Shown here one piece after another: positions 28,482 to 35,617 of a stretch of 64,000 nucleotides of DNA. The translations under genes and the position numbers were made by a program. The notes beneath the pieces are model-generated. The model did not search any database. It was not told where the DNA came from and saw only the letters and a program-made list of their open reading frames with translations. The stretch's first letter is position 1; each line of letters starts with the position of its first letter. The DNA is from Janthinobacterium sp. GW456P (GTDB lineage: Bacteria > Pseudomonadota > Gammaproteobacteria > Burkholderiales > Burkholderiaceae_D). The stretch is taken from contig NZ_NEHB01000001.1 in the NCBI RefSeq assembly GCF_002127655.1, forward strand, positions 211,972 to 275,971. Reading direction: 5' to 3'.

Positions 28482-28979
28482 CTACAGATCGACCCGGCCG
28501 TGTTCGCCCATGTCCTTCGGCGGCTCGCCCGTGATCGCGGCCTTGGCCATTTCATAGAATTGCATCATCTTGCTGGCGCTGCTATCCCAATACTCGGCCG
28601 ACTGGATCGTCACCTTGATCAGCGACAGTTTCGGATCGTCGAGTCCGCCCGGGAACCAGGCTTTGACCAGCGGATTCCACAACTCCTCCGCCTTGGCGCG
28701 GTCCTTCAGCAGCTGCGCGTGGCCGCAGACGGACACGTACAGGCTGTCGCCCGTGTCGACGAAGCTGACATTGACTTGCGGGTTGTTCGCCAAGTCGCGC
28801 GTATAGCTGGCCTCGTCGGAAACAAAGAACCAGATCTGTCCCTCGTTATCGACCTGTTGCTGCGTCAACGGCCGGCTGGTGAGGATGCGCATGTCGTCGC
28901 TGGTGGTCAGCATGCCGAATTTGACGTCCTTGATCTTGGCCGCGATGCTGGCCAGTTGTTCGCTGGAATACGATTGCAT
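28482..28979 (-). CDS. pyridoxamine 5'-phosphate oxidase family / general stress protein 26-like
   Basis: A 165-aa split-beta-barrel flavin-binding protein. The N-terminal helix is followed by VKFGMLTTSDDMRILTSRPLTQQ, GQIWFFVSDEASYTRDLANNPQVNVSFVDTGDSLYVSVCGHAQLL and LIKVTIQSAEYWDSSASKMMQFYEMAKAAITG, which match the general stress protein 26 subgroup rather than biosynthetic PdxH. It probably binds FMN or FAD, and the substrate is unknown. AGGGAG precedes the ATG at 28979. It is divergent from the Fur-box operon; whether it shares that regulation is unclear. Confidence 0.87.
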   Translation of the reverse strand: MQSYSSEQLASIAAKIKDVKFGMLTTSDDMRILTSRPLTQQQVDNEGQIWFFVSDEASYTRDLANNPQVNVSFVDTGDSLYVSVCGHAQLLKDRAKAEELWNPLVKAWFPGGLDDPKLSLIKVTIQSAEYWDSSASKMMQFYEMAKAAITGEPPKDMGEHGRVDL

Positions 28980-29116
28980 GGGTGCTCCCTTGTTGGTTGT
29001 CCTGAACAACCAGCATAGGCGCTTGCTGCATGCGGCTCTGTACGGCAGCTTACGTAGCTGGGGAGCTTTGTTTCAAAGCTGTTACAAAACGCCGGCCCGG
29101 CGGGGCGCCCCATGTC

Positions 29117-29147
29117 TTGACTTAATAAATGATAATCATTATCATTT
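29117..29147 (+). promoter_or_regulatory. Fur box overlapping sigma-70 promoter
   Basis: TTGACT (29117-29122) and TATCAT (29140-29145) are 17 nt apart. A perfect 21-bp dyad, AAATGATAAT-C-ATTATCATTT (29127-29147), matches the Fur consensus and covers the spacer and the -10. Iron-replete repression of the downstream operon is strongly predicted. Confidence 0.92.
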
Positions 29148-29187
29148 GTTTGAAAATATCGGCATGCACTTTGATTGAAGGATGGGA

Positions 29188-29250
29188 ATGAAGCACACTG
29201 ACTTGTCGCGCCAGCTGGCCCGCTCCTTGCCGGGAGCGGGCTATGGGTAA
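29188..29250 (+). CDS. 20-residue leader peptide ORF upstream of the iron operon
   Basis: ATG at 29188 with GAAGGATGGGA upstream opens a 20-codon frame (MKHTDLSRQLARSLPGAGYG) ending TAA at 29248-29250. The start of the next gene (29243) lies inside its last codons, so ribosomes ending the peptide would be placed for re-initiation. It may be a translational-coupling leader rather than a functional peptide. It could also be a chance frame, because the downstream gene's own ribosome site is weak. Confidence 0.45.
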   Translation: MKHTDLSRQLARSLPGAGYG

Positions 29251-29896
29251 GGCGGGCGCCGCGGACAAGGCCAGGAACAATGCCAGTCGCGCCGTCTGGC
29301 TGAAGAACTTGCATCAATGGCACTGGATCAGCTCGGCGCTTTGCCTGCTGGGCATGTTTTTGTTCGCCATCACCGGCATCACCCTGAACCACGCCGGCCA
29401 GATCGAGGCCAAGCCGTCGATCACGCGCCAGCAGGCGCAGTTGCCGGCACCGCTCATCAAGGAACTGGCCGCGTATGCCGCCGGGCATGACGGCGCCAAC
29501 GCACCGATGCCGGCCGCCGCCGAAACCTGGCTCAAGCAGCAGTGGTCGCTCAATGCGGGCGGGCGTGCCGCCGAATGGTCGATCGACGAAGTCTACCTGC
29601 CCCTGCCCAGGGCGGGCGGCGACGCCTGGGTGCGCATCGGCCTGGAAGACGGGGCCGCCGAATATGAATTGACGGACCGGGGCTGGGTGTCCTGGCTCAA
29701 CGACGTGCACAAGGGCCGCAACACGGGCGTGGCCTGGAGCTGGTTCATCGACATCTTTGCCGGCGCCTGCATCGTGTTTTGCCTGACGGGGCTATTGATT
29801 TTGAACTTCCACGCGGCCAACCGGCCATTTACCTGGCCGATGGTTGGCCTCGGTATTCTGATACCTTGCGCGATCGCCTTGTTGTTTATCCACTGA
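29243..29896 (+). CDS. PepSY-associated transmembrane protein
   Basis: An inner-membrane protein of 217 aa. It has an N-terminal membrane helix (ISSALCLLGMFLFAITGITLNH), a periplasmic domain of about 120 residues with WVSWLNDVHKGRNTG, and two closing helices (WFIDIFAGACIVFCLTGLLIL and MVGLGILIPCAIALLFI). The HQWHW and NDVHKGR histidines are typical of the PepSY_TM group that mediates electron transfer or ferric reduction across the membrane. It is the first full gene after a Fur box and is followed by DUF2271, DUF4198, apbE and flavoreductase genes, which supports an iron-reduction role. Confidence 0.85.
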   Translation: MGKAGAADKARNNASRAVWLKNLHQWHWISSALCLLGMFLFAITGITLNHAGQIEAKPSITRQQAQLPAPLIKELAAYAAGHDGANAPMPAAAETWLKQQWSLNAGGRAAEWSIDEVYLPLPRAGGDAWVRIGLEDGAAEYELTDRGWVSWLNDVHKGRNTGVAWSWFIDIFAGACIVFCLTGLLILNFHAANRPFTWPMVGLGILIPCAIALLFIH

Positions 29897-29928
29897 TCGT
29901 TTTTATTTTTCCTTTTTACAGGCACACC

Positions 29929-30444
29929 ATGAAATTACGCTACTCCCTGGCGCTTGGCCTTCCCCTGATCGGTACGTCGGCGATGGCTGCCGACTTGTCC
30001 CTCAAGATTGAAATTCCGCAACTGAACGTGGCGGAATACCACCGCCCCTACGTGGCGGCGTGGCTGGAAACGGCCGATCAAAAGGTCGTTGGCAATCTGG
30101 CTGTGCTGTATGACGTGAAAAAGAAGGACAAGGCGGGCGAGAAATGGCTGAAGGATATGCGTCAATGGTGGCGCAAGAGCGGCCGCGACCTGACCATGCC
30201 CGTGGACGGCGTCAGCGGCGCCACGCGCGCGCCGGGCGAGCATACGCTGACTTTCCCTGGCGCCAAGGCCTTGCTCGACAAGCTGCCGGCCGGCGAATAC
30301 CAGGTGGTGGTGGAGGCGGCGCGCGAAGCGGGCGGACGCGAACTGGTGCGTGTGCCGTTCCAGTGGCCGCTGAAATCGGCCCAGTCCGTTCCTGGCAAGG
30401 GCAAGGAAGAACTCGGCAATGTCGTCGTCCAACTCAAACCTTAA
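29929..30444 (+). CDS. DUF2271 periplasmic protein with flavinylation motif
   Basis: A 171-aa exported protein. The signal peptide is MKLRYSLALGLPLIGTSAMA, probably cleaved after Ala20 or Ala21. The mature part is a DUF2271 beta-sandwich (PYVAAWLETADQKVVGNLAVLYD, WWRKSGRDLTMPVDGVSGATRAPGEHTL). D93-GVSGA-T99 matches the D-x2-[ST]-G-A-T sequence whose threonine receives FMN from ApbE in NqrC and RnfG. An apbE gene lies in the same operon. It is therefore a good candidate for a covalently flavinylated periplasmic electron carrier. The start is ATG with ACAGG upstream, 32 nt after the PepSY gene. Confidence 0.85.
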   Translation: MKLRYSLALGLPLIGTSAMAADLSLKIEIPQLNVAEYHRPYVAAWLETADQKVVGNLAVLYDVKKKDKAGEKWLKDMRQWWRKSGRDLTMPVDGVSGATRAPGEHTLTFPGAKALLDKLPAGEYQVVVEAAREAGGRELVRVPFQWPLKSAQSVPGKGKEELGNVVVQLKP

Positions 30445-30456
30445 GGCGCCTCTACC

Positions 30457-31281
30457 ATGTTGAAGCAACTGAATAAACCGCTGATCGCCCTGGCGCTGGC
30501 CGGCCTGGCCATGAACGCCCATGCCCACCGGGGCTGGATGGTGCCGTCGAGCACGATGGTGGAAAGCAAGGACGCCTGGGTGACGGTGGATGCCGCCGTC
30601 TCCGATGGCCTGTTCGAGATCGACCACCAGCCGTTGCGCCTGGATGCGCTGCAAGTGACCGGCCCGGATGGCGCGAAAGTGACGCCGGCGAATACGGTCA
30701 CGGGCCGCTTGCGCAGCGTGTTCGATGTGAAGATGGAAAAGCCGGGCACGTACAAGGCTGCCATCGTGTCGCAGAATGTGATGGCCAGCTACAAGCTCAA
30801 CGGCGAGCAGAAACGCTTCCGCGGCAACGAAGAGACGTTCAAGAAAGACGTGCCGGCCGATGCGCAAGACGTAAAAGTCACGCGCACGGCAAGCCGTCTG
30901 GAAACCTTCTTCAGCAATGGCGAAACCAGCACGGAAGTGTTCAAGCCGACGGGCGTGGGCCTGGAATTCGTGCCCGTCACCCATCCGAACGACTTGCGCG
31001 CGGGCGAAAAAGCCACATGGCGCTTCCTGGTCGATGGCAAGCCGGCGGCCAACCAGGCCTTCAGTCTGGTGCCGGGCGGCGTGCGCTACCGTGGCGTGCT
31101 GGGGGAAATCCGCCAGAGCACCGATGCCAAGGGCGAGATCACGTTCACCTTGCCCGCGGCCGGCATGTATTACCTGAGCAGCACCTGGCCAGCGGCCGCA
31201 CCGGCCGTGGCCGGCCAGCCGCCGGCCATGCCCGAGCGCCGCATGACGTACGCGGCCACCGTGGAAGTGCTGCCGCAGTAA
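30457..31281 (+). CDS. DUF4198 domain periplasmic protein
   Basis: A 274-aa exported protein with the signal peptide MLKQLNKPLIALALAGLAMNAHA. The mature protein begins with His and is a DUF4198 (NikM-related) domain: HRGWMVPSSTMVESKDAWVTVDAAVSDGLFEIDHQPL, KPGTYKAAIVSQNVMASYKLNGEQKRF and GVGLEFVPVTHPNDL. A C-terminal carboxypeptidase-regulatory-like beta domain follows. Members are linked to metal uptake across the envelope. Placed between DUF2271 and apbE in a Fur-controlled operon, it may bind or hand over iron chelates (inference). It begins 12 nt after the DUF2271 stop codon. Confidence 0.85.
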   Translation: MLKQLNKPLIALALAGLAMNAHAHRGWMVPSSTMVESKDAWVTVDAAVSDGLFEIDHQPLRLDALQVTGPDGAKVTPANTVTGRLRSVFDVKMEKPGTYKAAIVSQNVMASYKLNGEQKRFRGNEETFKKDVPADAQDVKVTRTASRLETFFSNGETSTEVFKPTGVGLEFVPVTHPNDLRAGEKATWRFLVDGKPAANQAFSLVPGGVRYRGVLGEIRQSTDAKGEITFTLPAAGMYYLSSTWPAAAPAVAGQPPAMPERRMTYAATVEVLPQ

Positions 31282-31307
31282 GCGGCGGCCCCTACGCGAG
31301 AGCTTCG

Positions 31308-32336
31308 ATGCGCCGGGTCCTGCTGCCGCAGCATATTTCCGACCAGGTCGCGCCGCCCGGCGCCGCGATCCGGGATCTGCGCGGCATGACGATGGGCACC
31401 AGCTGGTCGGTGCGCCTGCTGGAGTCCGCCATGCCGGGACGCGCGGGCAGCGCCGACTTGCAGCTGGGCTTGCAGCAGCAGCTCGATATTGTCGTCGCGC
31501 AAATGAGCCACTGGAGCGACGAGTCCGATCTGGGCCGCTTCAACCGCGCCGAGCCCGGCAGCTGGCACAGTCTGTCCGCCGCGTTTTGCGAGGTGCTGGG
31601 CTTTGCCATGCACGTGGCGCACGCGTCGGGCGGCGCCTACGATCCGTGCGCGGGCGCCCTCGTTAACCTGTGGGGCTTCGGTCCGCGCAAGCGCTACGAC
31701 GAGCCCGGTTTTCTTCCTCCCAAGCACGATACAGTGGCCCTGCTGCTGGCACAGCGCCAGCGCCGCCGCCTGGAACTGGACCTGCCGGCCCGCCGCGCGC
31801 GCCAGCCGGGTGGCTTGCAGCTCGATTTGTCGGCCATTGCCAAGGGCTATGGCGTGGACCGCCTGGCCCGCTACCTCGACAGCCAGGGCATCGGCCATTA
31901 CCTGGTCGAAGTGGGCGGCGAGCTGCGCGGCGCTGGCAGCAAGCCCGACGGCCAGCCCTGGTGGGTCATGCTGGAACAGGTCGATGGCGCCGATGCGGAT
32001 CAGCATCCGGCGGAAATGCTGCTGGCGCTGCACGGCCTGTCCGTGGCGACGTCGGGCGACTACCGGCGTTTCTTTCAGGATGGCACGGCGCGCTTTTCGC
32101 ACACGATCGATCCGCGCAGCGGCATGCCGATCGCCAATCAACTCGCTTCCGTCACGGTCGTGCACGAGCAATGCATGGCGGCCGACGCGTGGTCGACGGC
32201 CCTGACCGTGCTCGGTGTCGAAGCCGGCATGGCGCTGGCCGAAGAGCAGGGCCTGGCCGCGCGCTTCCTGCAGCGCGACGGCCTCGGCTTTCAAGAAACG
32301 CTGAGCAGCCATATGCTGGCCATGCTCGACGAATGA
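31308..32336 (+). CDS. apbE: FAD:protein FMN transferase
   Basis: Transfers FMN from FAD to a threonine of target proteins. The 342-aa sequence shows the ApbE signatures MTMGTSWSVRLLE, MSHWSDESDLGRFN, GGAYDPCAGALVNLWGFGP, LDLSAIAKGYGVDRLARYLDSQGIGHYLVEVGGELRGAG, and SVATSGDYRRFF with FSHTIDPRSGMPI, which form the flavin and metal sites. There is no clear lipobox or signal peptide from the chosen ATG at 31308, which is unusual for ApbE. The frame is open upstream, but the preceding gene's coding sequence fills that space. Its natural substrate is probably the DGVSGAT motif of the DUF2271 protein two genes upstream. Confidence 0.92.
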   Translation: MRRVLLPQHISDQVAPPGAAIRDLRGMTMGTSWSVRLLESAMPGRAGSADLQLGLQQQLDIVVAQMSHWSDESDLGRFNRAEPGSWHSLSAAFCEVLGFAMHVAHASGGAYDPCAGALVNLWGFGPRKRYDEPGFLPPKHDTVALLLAQRQRRRLELDLPARRARQPGGLQLDLSAIAKGYGVDRLARYLDSQGIGHYLVEVGGELRGAGSKPDGQPWWVMLEQVDGADADQHPAEMLLALHGLSVATSGDYRRFFQDGTARFSHTIDPRSGMPIANQLASVTVVHEQCMAADAWSTALTVLGVEAGMALAEEQGLAARFLQRDGLGFQETLSSHMLAMLDE

Positions 32337-32349
32337 ACGATTATCTTCC

Positions 32350-33714
32350 ATGATTTTTACGCACGATACGACGCGGCTGGCCTTGCTGGCCGCCCTGTCC
32401 CTCAGTTATGCGGGCGTGTGCCTGGCGCCCTGGCTGCGCGCGCGCGCCAGGCGCCGCGCATCCGCCGCCGCCAAGGCGGCGCTGGCAAACAGTCCCGCCT
32501 GGCTGGTGACATATGCAAGCCAGACGGGCAATGCCGAGGAACTGGCCACGCAAACGGCGCAGAGCCTGCAACTGGCCGGCATCCCCGTGCGCCTGTGCGC
32601 GCTGGCCGAAGTCATGGCCGTTGATCTGCAACAAGCGGAGCGGGCCTTGTTCCTGGTCAGCACCTATGGAGAAGGCGATGCGCCCGACAATGCGGCCGCC
32701 TTCATGGGCCGCCTGATGACGGGCGAGCTGGCGCTGCCGCAATTGCATTACGCGGTGCTGGCCCTGGGCGACCGCAGCTATGGCCAGTTCTGCGGCTTCG
32801 GCCGCGCGCTCGATGCCTGGCTGGCGGCGCAGGGCGCCTCGCGCCTGTTCGAGCGCATTGAAGTCGACCGCAGCGCCGGCGCCGCCATCGAGCAATGGTT
32901 CCAGCACCTGAGCCACCTGGCCGGCACCAGCGACGCGCCCGACTGGAGCGCGCCCGCCTTTGGCGACTGGCGCCTGACGCAGCGGCGCCACCTTAACCCC
33001 GGCAGCGCCGGCGGCGCCATCTATCACGTGGAACTGGCGCCCGTGGCCGGCAGCTTGCCTGACTGGCAGTCGGGCGACCTGGTGCAGGTGACGGCGCCCG
33101 CCGATCCATCCCAGCCACGCGAATATTCGATCGCCTCGATTCCGCGCGATGGCGGCGTGCACTTGCTGGTGCGCCAGCATGCGCATCCCGACGGCAGCCT
33201 GGGCCTGGCCTCGGGCTGGCTCACGGCGCAGGCCGCTGTCGGCGACGTGGTGCAGCTGCGCCTGCGCCAGCACCGGCGTTTCCGTCTGGAAGACAATGCC
33301 CGGCGCCCTTTGATTTTGATCGGCAACGGCAGCGGTATCGCCGGCTTGCGCGGGCATTTGAAAAGCCGCGTGCTGGCAGGGCAGCGGCGCAACTGGCTGA
33401 TCTTTGGCGAGCGCAACCTGGCCCACGATTTTCATTATCGCGAAGAGATTGAAGGCTGGCATGCCAGCGGCGATTTGCCGCGCCTGGACCTGGCGTTTTC
33501 GCGCGACCAGGCCGAGCGGACCTACGTGCAGGACCGCCTGCGCGGCAATGCCGATGAAGTCAGGCTGTGGCTGGAGCAGGGCGCGGCCATCTATATTTGC
33601 GGCAGCCTGGCCGGCATGGCGGGCGGCGTCGACCAGGCCCTGCAGGAGATACTGGGCCGGCCCGCGCTCGACGCGCTGGCGGCCCAAGGGCGCTACCGGC
33701 GCGACGTGTATTAA
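32350..33714 (+). CDS. membrane-anchored sulfite reductase flavoprotein-like diflavin reductase
   Basis: A 454-aa NADPH-dependent reductase of the CysJ/P450-reductase type. An N-terminal helix (LALLAALSLSYAGVCLAPWL) anchors it. A flavodoxin domain binds FMN (VTYASQTGNAEELA, STYGEGDAPDNAAAF, ALGDRSYGQFCGFG). The ferredoxin-reductase domain binds FAD (REYSIASIP) and NADPH (LILIGNGSGIAGLRGHL, IYICGSLAGMAGGVDQAL), and a C-terminal aromatic residue (RDVY) stacks on FAD as in the family. Last gene of the Fur operon, 13 nt after apbE. It probably feeds electrons from NADPH into the PepSY/DUF2271 path. Confidence 0.88.
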   Translation: MIFTHDTTRLALLAALSLSYAGVCLAPWLRARARRRASAAAKAALANSPAWLVTYASQTGNAEELATQTAQSLQLAGIPVRLCALAEVMAVDLQQAERALFLVSTYGEGDAPDNAAAFMGRLMTGELALPQLHYAVLALGDRSYGQFCGFGRALDAWLAAQGASRLFERIEVDRSAGAAIEQWFQHLSHLAGTSDAPDWSAPAFGDWRLTQRRHLNPGSAGGAIYHVELAPVAGSLPDWQSGDLVQVTAPADPSQPREYSIASIPRDGGVHLLVRQHAHPDGSLGLASGWLTAQAAVGDVVQLRLRQHRRFRLEDNARRPLILIGNGSGIAGLRGHLKSRVLAGQRRNWLIFGERNLAHDFHYREEIEGWHASGDLPRLDLAFSRDQAERTYVQDRLRGNADEVRLWLEQGAAIYICGSLAGMAGGVDQALQEILGRPALDALAAQGRYRRDVY

Positions 33715-33729
33715 TGCGGCAGGGATTGC

Positions 33730-34959
33730 TTAGGGCTGGAGCGCGGCCAGCGGCGCCGTGTCCATTTCTTCGCTCACTTCCTGCAAGCCGCGCGCCAGGC
33801 TGGAGATGCTGGGGTTGTCGATGAAGACGCAGCGCTTGCCCGTGCGCTTGCAATAATCCTTCACGCGCCAGTAGGCGCTGTGGCTGATGCAGCCCGTCTG
33901 GCATATCACCAGGTCGGCCGCCGCCAGGCTCGAGTCGAGCAGGTTGGCATTGTCTTCCAGGCCGCCGTCGTGGTGGGCGAACTGCGCGCCGACCCGCTCG
34001 ATCAGGGCGCGGTAGGTGGCGACATTGCCGCTGCGCCCGCCCACGCACAAGACGCTTTGATCGACGAGGCGGATCGGCATTTTCAGCTTGCCGCCGGTCG
34101 GCACTTCCAGCTTGGTAGCCGGTGGCGGCAAGGCGGCGGCCTGGCGCGGCTGGGCCTGTTTCAATTCCGCGATTTGCTGGCGCAATTCCTTTTCGCGCTC
34201 ATCCATTTGCGCCAGGCGTTCGACCAGGCGCGTGCGCGAGTCCAGCGCCGGGATGGCGGCCTGCAATTGCGCCAGTTCCGCGCGCAAGCCGTCGATCACG
34301 CTATCCTTGCCGATGGCTTCGGCACGCGTGCGCAGCAGCACGGCTTCCTGGCGTTCCAGTTCGCCCGTTTTTTCCGTCAGTGCGGCCTGGCTGCGCTGTT
34401 GCAGCTTGGCCAGTTCTTGCGTCAGGCGTGCGTTTTCTTCCTGCAAGGCTGTAAATTTGCCCATGTCGGCGCGCACGCAGGCGCCGGCCTGGTGCTGGAT
34501 CATGTGCAGGTCGCGGCACATCTGCTCTTCCAGCTCGGCGTCGCAGCGCGGGTGCGTCAGGCCGGCCCAGAAAGCGCCCGACACGTCGCCGTTGGCGACG
34601 GCCGTGCGCCACAGTTGCGCTACCTGTTCCGTGGTCTTGGCGCCGCGAAAGCGCAGGATCACGGGAGCGTAGCGGCGTTCGAGTTCTTTTTGCAGTGCTT
34701 CGGACAGGCGGTTGCGCGCGCCGCATTCCGTCACGGCGCCCACGTGCACTTCGTAGTCATCGGCCAGCACGCGTCCGCCCGTCATCTTGCCCACCAGTTT
34801 GCGCAGGTAGCCCAAGGGCAAGCCCACGCCAACCAGCGGGCAATGGCAGGTATGCGACAGTTCCCACAACCGCCGGCGGCGCGAAGCGAGTGCGGCCGTT
34901 TCCGTGTCGGCGTGGGCGCAATTGCTGATGACGGGCAGGGACTGGTCTTTGTCACACAT
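33730..34959 (-). CDS. DUF2325 domain protein with long coiled coil
   Basis: A 409-aa cytoplasmic protein. The N-terminal 130 residues include several Cys and His (HTCHCPLVG, TECGARN, HPRCDAELEEQMCRDLH). Residues about 165-285 form a long Gln/Glu/Ala-rich coiled coil. The C-terminal 100 residues are a DUF2325 domain (SVLCVGGRSGNVATYRALIERVGAQFAHHDGG, DLVICQTGCISHSAYWRVKDYCKRTGKRCVFI). Function is unknown. It is the last gene of the hemP-led operon and converges on the Fur operon with a 15-bp gap, so a role in iron or heme handling is inferred from context only. Confidence 0.8.
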   Translation of the reverse strand: MCDKDQSLPVISNCAHADTETAALASRRRRLWELSHTCHCPLVGVGLPLGYLRKLVGKMTGGRVLADDYEVHVGAVTECGARNRLSEALQKELERRYAPVILRFRGAKTTEQVAQLWRTAVANGDVSGAFWAGLTHPRCDAELEEQMCRDLHMIQHQAGACVRADMGKFTALQEENARLTQELAKLQQRSQAALTEKTGELERQEAVLLRTRAEAIGKDSVIDGLRAELAQLQAAIPALDSRTRLVERLAQMDEREKELRQQIAELKQAQPRQAAALPPPATKLEVPTGGKLKMPIRLVDQSVLCVGGRSGNVATYRALIERVGAQFAHHDGGLEDNANLLDSSLAAADLVICQTGCISHSAYWRVKDYCKRTGKRCVFIDNPSISSLARGLQEVSEEMDTAPLAALQP

Positions 34960-35419: not shown

Positions 35420-35617
35420 TCAGGCAGTCAGGATCAGCTTGTTCAATTGGGTGACGCGCAGGCGATAGATCTTGCCGCTGTGCTCAATCTCCACTTCGCG
35501 GCCCTGCTGCAGCAGCGCTTCGCTGGTGATGCGGCGCGCCGGCTGGGCCATGCTGACGGGAGGACGGACGTGGGCGGTAGCGGCATCCTGGATCAAGGCT
35601 GGTTTTGAGCTTTGCAT
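35420..35617 (-). CDS. hemP: hemin uptake protein HemP
   Basis: A 65-aa protein of the HemP/HmuP family. The conserved core is RITSEALLQQGREVEIEHSGKIYRLRVTQLNKLILT, where the IxHxGxxYxLRxTxxxKLILT pattern is diagnostic. HmuP in Bradyrhizobium and Burkholderia acts as a regulator needed for heme-receptor gene activation, so the name uptake protein may be misleading. A Fur-like sequence (35640-35660) lies directly upstream. It is the first gene of a three-gene operon, and no heme receptor gene is in this window. Confidence 0.92.
   Translation of the reverse strand: MQSSKPALIQDAATAHVRPPVSMAQPARRITSEALLQQGREVEIEHSGKIYRLRVTQLNKLILTA

Follow-up and report, generated by a model that had tools for sequence, protein, structure and literature searches.

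A Predicted Cytosolic ApbE Beside a Probable Exported DUF2271 Substrate in a PepSY-Type Flavinylation Operon of Janthinobacterium

Gene Content of the Locus

We analyzed a stretch of 64,000 nucleotides from Janthinobacterium sp. GW456P (contig NZ_NEHB01000001.1), referred to as the window (G+C content 63.8%). Five consecutive plus-strand genes span 29243 to 33714 and encode a PepSY protein, a DUF2271 protein, a DUF4198 protein, the flavin transferase ApbE, and a diflavin reductase. This set, proposed in the initial annotation, was borne out, as all five genes are present and have matches in Pfam. The features of the locus are:

29127..29147, + strand: Fur-box palindrome AAATGATAATCATTATCATTT upstream of the operon, with an exact 7-1-7 core at 29130-29144
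29243..29896, + strand: PepSY-like membrane protein with three transmembrane (TM) segments, a predicted two-haem transmembrane electron carrier (PF16357 PepSY_TM_like_2, E 2.6e-78)
29929..30444, + strand: DUF2271 protein of 171 residues, a predicted flavinylated periplasmic electron carrier (PF10029, E 7.1e-51)
30205..30225, + strand: flavinylation motif D93-G-V-S-G-A-T99, acceptor Thr99 (Ser or Thr in all sampled loci)
30457..31281, + strand: DUF4198 protein, exported, probably a periplasmic metal-binding protein (PF10670, E 1.3e-51)
31308..32336, + strand: ApbE flavin transferase of 342 residues, predicted cytosolic, neither signal peptide nor lipobox seen (PF02424, E 5.2e-77)
32350..33714, + strand: membrane-anchored reductase with flavodoxin and NAD(P)-binding domains, CysJ-like but short, a predicted cytosolic donor from reduced nicotinamide adenine dinucleotide phosphate (NADPH) to haem (Flavodoxin_1 5.1e-29, NAD_binding_1 1.1e-8)

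The operon is almost certainly a member of the known PepSY-type flavinylation system. Its PepSY protein also matches PF03929 (2.5e-10), and the published definition of such clusters (PF03929 or PF16357 beside flavinylation genes, PMC8238504) covers it; Meheust et al. 2021 tallied PepSY-like clusters and found DUF2271 in 2833 and DUF4198 in 1500 (PMC8238504). The operon itself is of a known iron-acquisition kind, and the central interpretation of the initial annotation was sound, yet had already been published.

The DUF2271 sample comprised 161 loci: 80 from phylum/order genomes, 80 from named genomes, and that of the window. The phylum/order set held every DUF2271 match above the Pfam cut-off, 13 matches below it (10 + 3) being left out, and the named-genome set the best 80 DUF2271 matches; one genome was counted in both sets (L265 and L052). 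The gene order PepSY-DUF2271-DUF4198-ApbE-reductase was found in 30/81 loci, window included.

The DUF2271 Protein and Its Flavinylation Motif

The DUF2271 protein, whose domain is 99% identical to the J. lividum HSC-65S10 counterpart, begins with a Sec-type signal peptide (about 29929-29988). The motif D93-G-V-S-G-A-T99 had been read and numbered correctly, and a check of all operon proteins of the window revealed it in no other. The structure model has a mean predicted local distance difference test (pLDDT) score of 81.2; its residues 71-75 (precursor 91-95) fall below 50, and the motif is modeled in this low-confidence, probably flexible loop.

Conservation of the motif among apbE-linked DUF2271 proteins had been put forward as a check on their being ApbE substrates. 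The acceptor Ser/Thr was kept in 161/161 loci and a Ser/Thr three places before it in 159/161, the strict form [S/T]GA[S/T] in 120/161. Where a stand-alone apbE accompanied the gene, the corresponding values were 118/118 for the acceptor and 100/118 for the strict form, the latter being found in 0/7 ApbE-DUF2271 fusions. The acceptor residue thus stood the check and the strict motif only in part, which did not refute the idea. TGPT or SGPT occurred in some apbE-bearing operons, and R/K-P-T in most fusions.

Published experiments support the DUF2271 protein as a likely ApbE substrate. The Amantichitinum ursilacus homologue was flavinylated by its own ApbE in co-expression, and replacement of the same threonine by alanine abolished the modification (Meheust et al. 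2021, PMC8238504). ApbE needs no more than a seven-residue motif, and swaps of the motif Gly or Ala reduced flavinylation (review PMC12052999).

Two groups with altered motifs were observed. Six loci of one family (f17: L051, L053, L054, L056, L059, and L060) have DGVTGPT in place of SGAT, although their operon ApbE passes neither of the signal rules given below; no published test of Pro at that position was found in the portions of the literature at hand. The seven fusions (L097, L098, L100, L101, L124, L125, and L126) form one tree group, and the GA of their motif is replaced by RP, KP, GP, or RE.

N-Termini of the Operon ApbEs

The window ApbE scored 259.4 bits against a PF02424 cut-off of 25.6, and its best PDB matches are transferases of flavin mononucleotide (FMN) from flavin adenine dinucleotide (FAD) to protein (5mgy, 1.6e-57). 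The stretches TSGDYR, SHTIDPRSG, and ADAWSTAL, which we take to be functional elements of the family, were read in its sequence. The protein begins MRRVLLPQHISDQVAPPGAAIRDLRGMTMGT, with no hydrophobic core, and the N-terminal signal peptide or lipobox that marks extracytosolic ApbEs was not found in it. Its hydropathy value of 0.57 lies below the limit of the rule applied, an 11-residue stretch of mean at least 2.0 ahead of the ApbE domain with every in-frame start allowed; a second, permissive signal rule was also negative.

Only 2/52 stand-alone operon ApbEs reached the hydropathy limit (L065, a clear lipoprotein, and the borderline L096), against 33/57 ApbEs encoded elsewhere in the same genomes, where some domain anchors were misplaced. 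In the named genomes, 4/66 operon ApbEs reached it and 62/66 did not. Lipobox-like N-termini were seen in ApbEs outside the operon in L167 and L168. Among the 72 operon ApbEs with at most 60 open-frame codons before the domain, 48 lacked any 8-residue stretch of mean hydropathy 1.8. Eight loci (L103, L105, L106, L115, L127, L102, L053, and L054) have only 17-31 such codons, which leaves too little room, or too polar a sequence, for a signal peptide. A tree of 114 ApbEs joined the 52 operon enzymes and one long-branch stray in a single group (98/94 support); the neighbors of this group are mostly lipoprotein ApbEs.

Several points weigh against a cytosolic enzyme and favor an ApbE that leaves the cytosol by means of an atypical or weak Sec signal and then flavinylates DUF2271 in the periplasm, the site used in other systems. 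Signal status was judged by the hydropathy and permissive rules rather than by a SignalP-class predictor. The permissive rule flagged 10/52 operon ApbEs and 15/67 in the named set as signal-like, often via the stretch RVLIPVALSAPP, and the four named enzymes above the hydropathy limit point the same way; 11/72 of the short-leader enzymes contain an 8-residue stretch of mean hydropathy at least 2.2. The A. ursilacus ApbE construct was called "signal peptide-truncated" (PMC8238504), so that this member may be exported, and PMC12052999 cites an earlier study in which an ApbE without its signal did not complement.

The candidate signal would be a conserved R-[VI]-[LF]-[IVL]-P stretch (31308-31334 in the window), whose loose pattern was found in 83/119 operon ApbEs. 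This R-V-L-I-P stretch is broken by Pro, and in many enzymes by His, Gln, Asp, or Arg (the window has MRRVLLPQHISDQ). It stands 24-27 residues ahead of the domain in 77 of the 83, unlike a signal peptide, and is perhaps a docking element. MSKTSTDLVRHALNG-like N-termini within a short open frame are all that type-2 operons offer. The same permissive rule was passed by 141/143 DUF4198 proteins and 140/161 DUF2271 proteins of these loci, seven fusions without a signal of their own being among the misses. It was also positive for 43/57 ApbEs elsewhere, for 7/7 fusions (3/7 by the hydropathy limit), and for 8/370 internal control windows, and it flagged 40/153 reductases and 71/143 PepSY proteins, both of which have N-terminal membrane stretches. 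Altogether, export of the operon ApbE seems unlikely, and its N-terminal sequences point to an enzyme that is probably cytosolic. To judge from these N-termini, the membrane appears to separate ApbE from its exported substrate, a point absent from the initial annotation; a literature search found no published account of a signal-less operon ApbE paired with a signal-bearing DUF2271.

Distribution of ApbE and FMN_bind Proteins among Genomes

The genome searches scored only candidates from a loose first pass, so that some ApbE or FMN_bind proteins may have escaped detection. All 77 searched DUF2271 genomes have an ApbE, as compared with 291/398 in the phylum sample. A stand-alone operon ApbE was present in 52 genomes, that of the window included, and was the sole ApbE found in 32; 25 of these 32 enzymes were negative by both signal rules. 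FMN_bind proteins were found in 0/32 genomes with the operon ApbE alone and in 17/20 that had another one as well (Fisher test, 5e-11, not corrected for kinship), in 21/21 whose DUF2271 locus is without apbE, and in 0/5 with fusions only. The 21 genomes of the third group all encode elsewhere an ApbE with a signal peptide or lipobox. Of the control genomes, that of C. vibrioides gave a match to PF02424 (ApbE) but none to PF04205 (FMN_bind).

The 48 genomes of the named set, one of which also belongs to the first, gave 0/9 for the operon ApbE alone, 26/31 for more than one ApbE (Fisher test, 7e-6), and 8/8 for those without operon apbE. Of the 14 named loci entered as lacking ApbE, four (L227, L246, L256, and L275) lie on short contigs, and L227 does have an ApbE at the contig end. 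Both kinds of genomes occur within six families (f1, f2, f5, f10, f55, and f90): those with a sole ApbE are without FMN_bind, and all others but one have it. No sampled genome with an FMN_bind protein depends on a signal-less ApbE alone.

NqrC, RnfG, and NosR insert into the membrane during their synthesis. The pattern fits a cytosolic ApbE able to reach DUF2271, which is soluble and probably exported after synthesis, but not these three proteins. Other observations tell against this interpretation. In family f103, FMN_bind was found in neither the sole-ApbE genome nor the other, and the nos, nqr, and rnf clusters carry their own apbE, which alone could explain part of the pattern. Moreover, the genome of the window encodes, close to a NosR-like FMN_bind protein, a second ApbE whose signal is Tat-like, and this enzyme could serve DUF2271 after export. 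In the L003 genome (G000 C46), a second ApbE with a Tat-like signal follows closely behind an FMN_bind domain carried by an open frame of 719 codons, which we take to be a NosR-NosX-like arrangement.

A periplasmic ApbE seems able to serve DUF2271 in trans. The operon enzyme might then act in the cytosol on some other target while DUF2271 is flavinylated after export by a second, periplasmic ApbE, as the Tat-type enzyme of the window's genome would allow. We regard this as very unlikely, considering that no ApbE besides that of the operon was found in the 32 sampled genomes or in 9/48 named ones, and that the window operon encodes no other protein with the motif.

Iron Control and the Terminal Acceptor

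The Fur box at 29130-29144 is an exact TGATAATCATTATCA in the 7-1-7 form and the sole exact copy within the 64 kb. With up to three mismatches allowed, the 7-1-7 search gave two matches in the window against 0.26 expected by chance. Compared with the 19-base consensus, the site matched at 16/19 positions, for which there were 0 such matches in 100 shuffles. The "perfect Fur box" of the initial annotation is therefore exact as a 7-1-7 element and falls short of perfection against the longer consensus. By the sequence mark of a Fur regulon, a Fur box upstream, the window operon qualifies. Fur-like sites (at least 13/19) lay within 450 bases upstream of the PepSY gene in 58/80 named and 24/63 further loci (window included), against about 2% of shuffles and 0/79 coding controls.

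The Caulobacter operon CC3059-3063, alike in its five functions and in their order, is iron-repressed and Fur-regulated (da Silva Neto et al. 2013, PMC3751524), and a preprint ties its locus to a fitness defect in ethylenediaminetetraacetic acid (EDTA), connected with iron (PMC11870441). The Alteromonas DUF2271 and DUF4198 genes are upregulated under iron limitation (PMC7190382). The PepSY-type clusters have an iron/Fur link and partly co-occur with iron transporters and TonB receptors (PMC8238504).

The DUF4198 protein raises the question of another acceptor. Its mature N-terminus is predicted to be His (codon at 30526); this His1 is invariant in 35 sequences, and an A-x-A/H-like site was present in 79/79 named loci by a permissive pattern. 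A mature N-terminal His is one mark of a His brace, which would also call for a second ligand, His18, and bound metal (PMC12537917). The structure model resembles the Zn/Cu/Co-bound Zcp and 9gcb, and the Ideonella DUF4198 protein binds Ni (PMC12537917). With relatives that bind nickel or zinc, the physiological acceptor might be a periplasmic metal or oxidant other than ferric iron. The Fur-like boxes, the Caulobacter regulation, the EDTA phenotype, and the co-occurrence with iron uptake genes argue against it, and we consider such an acceptor rather improbable.

Two sets of neighboring genes were noted. A pyridoxamine-5'-phosphate-oxidase-like gene (PF16242, 4.4e-50; 28482-28985, - strand) diverges from the operon, and the intergenic region with the Fur box is common to both. 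Downstream, hemP (PF10636, 3.8e-16; 35420-35617, - strand) lies close to the operon, with a DUF2325 gene (33730-34959, - strand) and a small open reading frame in between. The whole neighborhood, hemP included, may be iron-related.

The PepSY Protein and the Reductase

Alignment of 22 PepSY sequences showed His27, His156, and His217 to be invariant and His190 to be at least 90% conserved. Two of the four would be expected at each membrane face, as the predicted topology suggests, and by analogy with FoxB as described in PMC11334425 they are predicted to ligate haem. A PDB sequence profile search with the window PepSY protein gave no match.

The N-terminus of the reductase consists of a hydrophobic stretch followed by RARARRR. 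The protein falls short of the NCBIfam cysJ equivalog, which it matched in two pieces with 267.9 bits (cut-off 668.15); it has 454 residues vs. 597 for full-length CysJ.

Proposed Mechanism

The explanation that we consider likely as a whole is a Fur-switched ferric reduction system of the PepSY type, in which a cytosolic ApbE flavinylates DUF2271 before its export. Iron starvation would act through Fur to switch on this assimilatory operon. The membrane-anchored diflavin reductase would take electrons from NADPH and pass them across the membrane, by way of two putative bis-histidine haems in the PepSY protein, to the FMN bound covalently to Thr99 of the periplasmic DUF2271 protein; the flavin would then reduce ferric chelates, with DUF4198 probably binding metal beside it. 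Such an electron path and ferric-chelate reduction are plausible.

The operon's own ApbE would attach FMN in the cytosol to the DUF2271 precursor, before or during Sec export. With the enzyme predicted to reside in the cytosol, the precursor is most likely the form of DUF2271 that receives the flavin, and we lean towards attachment ahead of export. Work with substrates that carry rigid organic tails indicates that the SecYEG lumen may widen to 2.4 nm (PMC6028853). FMN attached before or during export would make a periplasmic FAD supply unnecessary.

With a similar leaning, we propose that this ApbE clade acts in the cytosol on Sec-secreted DUF2271 and that one substrate family is matured by two routes, either by a dedicated cytosolic ApbE or, in genomes with FMN_bind proteins of the NQR, RNF, or NosR type, by a shared periplasmic one. 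The new point concerns the maturation of exported flavoproteins, via the location of ApbE. If true, the Sec pathway would carry a protein with covalently attached FMN in a large group of Pseudomonadota.

Comparison with Known Systems

The window operon shares with the PepSY-like flavinylation clusters (PMC8238504) the PF16357 protein, the DUF2271 substrate, DUF4198, ApbE, the iron/Fur link, and the acceptor Thr in [S/T]GA[S/T]. The Caulobacter crescentus operon CC3059-3063 (CCNA_03155-03159) has the same order of a transporter, DUF2271, DUF4198, ApbE, and a sulfite-reductase-like flavoprotein (PMC3751524, PMC11870441). Biochemistry on flavinylation or ApbE location was not found in the portions of its publications at hand; the ApbE of the C. 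segnis homologue (L278) is likewise negative by both signal rules.

In the FoxB-type PepSY siderophore reductase, conserved His residues of the TM helices are likewise thought to ligate two haems (PMC11334425), whereas the window PepSY protein has three TM segments and would work with a separate reductase and a flavinylated partner. The cytosolic ApbE of Klebsiella also lacks a signal peptide, but acts on a fumarate reductase that is soluble and cytoplasmic (PMC12052999), whereas the substrate here is predicted to be exported. The periplasmic or lipoprotein ApbEs of the NQR, RNF, and NosX types belong to the same enzyme family and are tree neighbors of the operon enzymes, but they differ in having a Sec/Tat signal or a lipobox and in modifying FMN_bind proteins that are exported or sit in the membrane.

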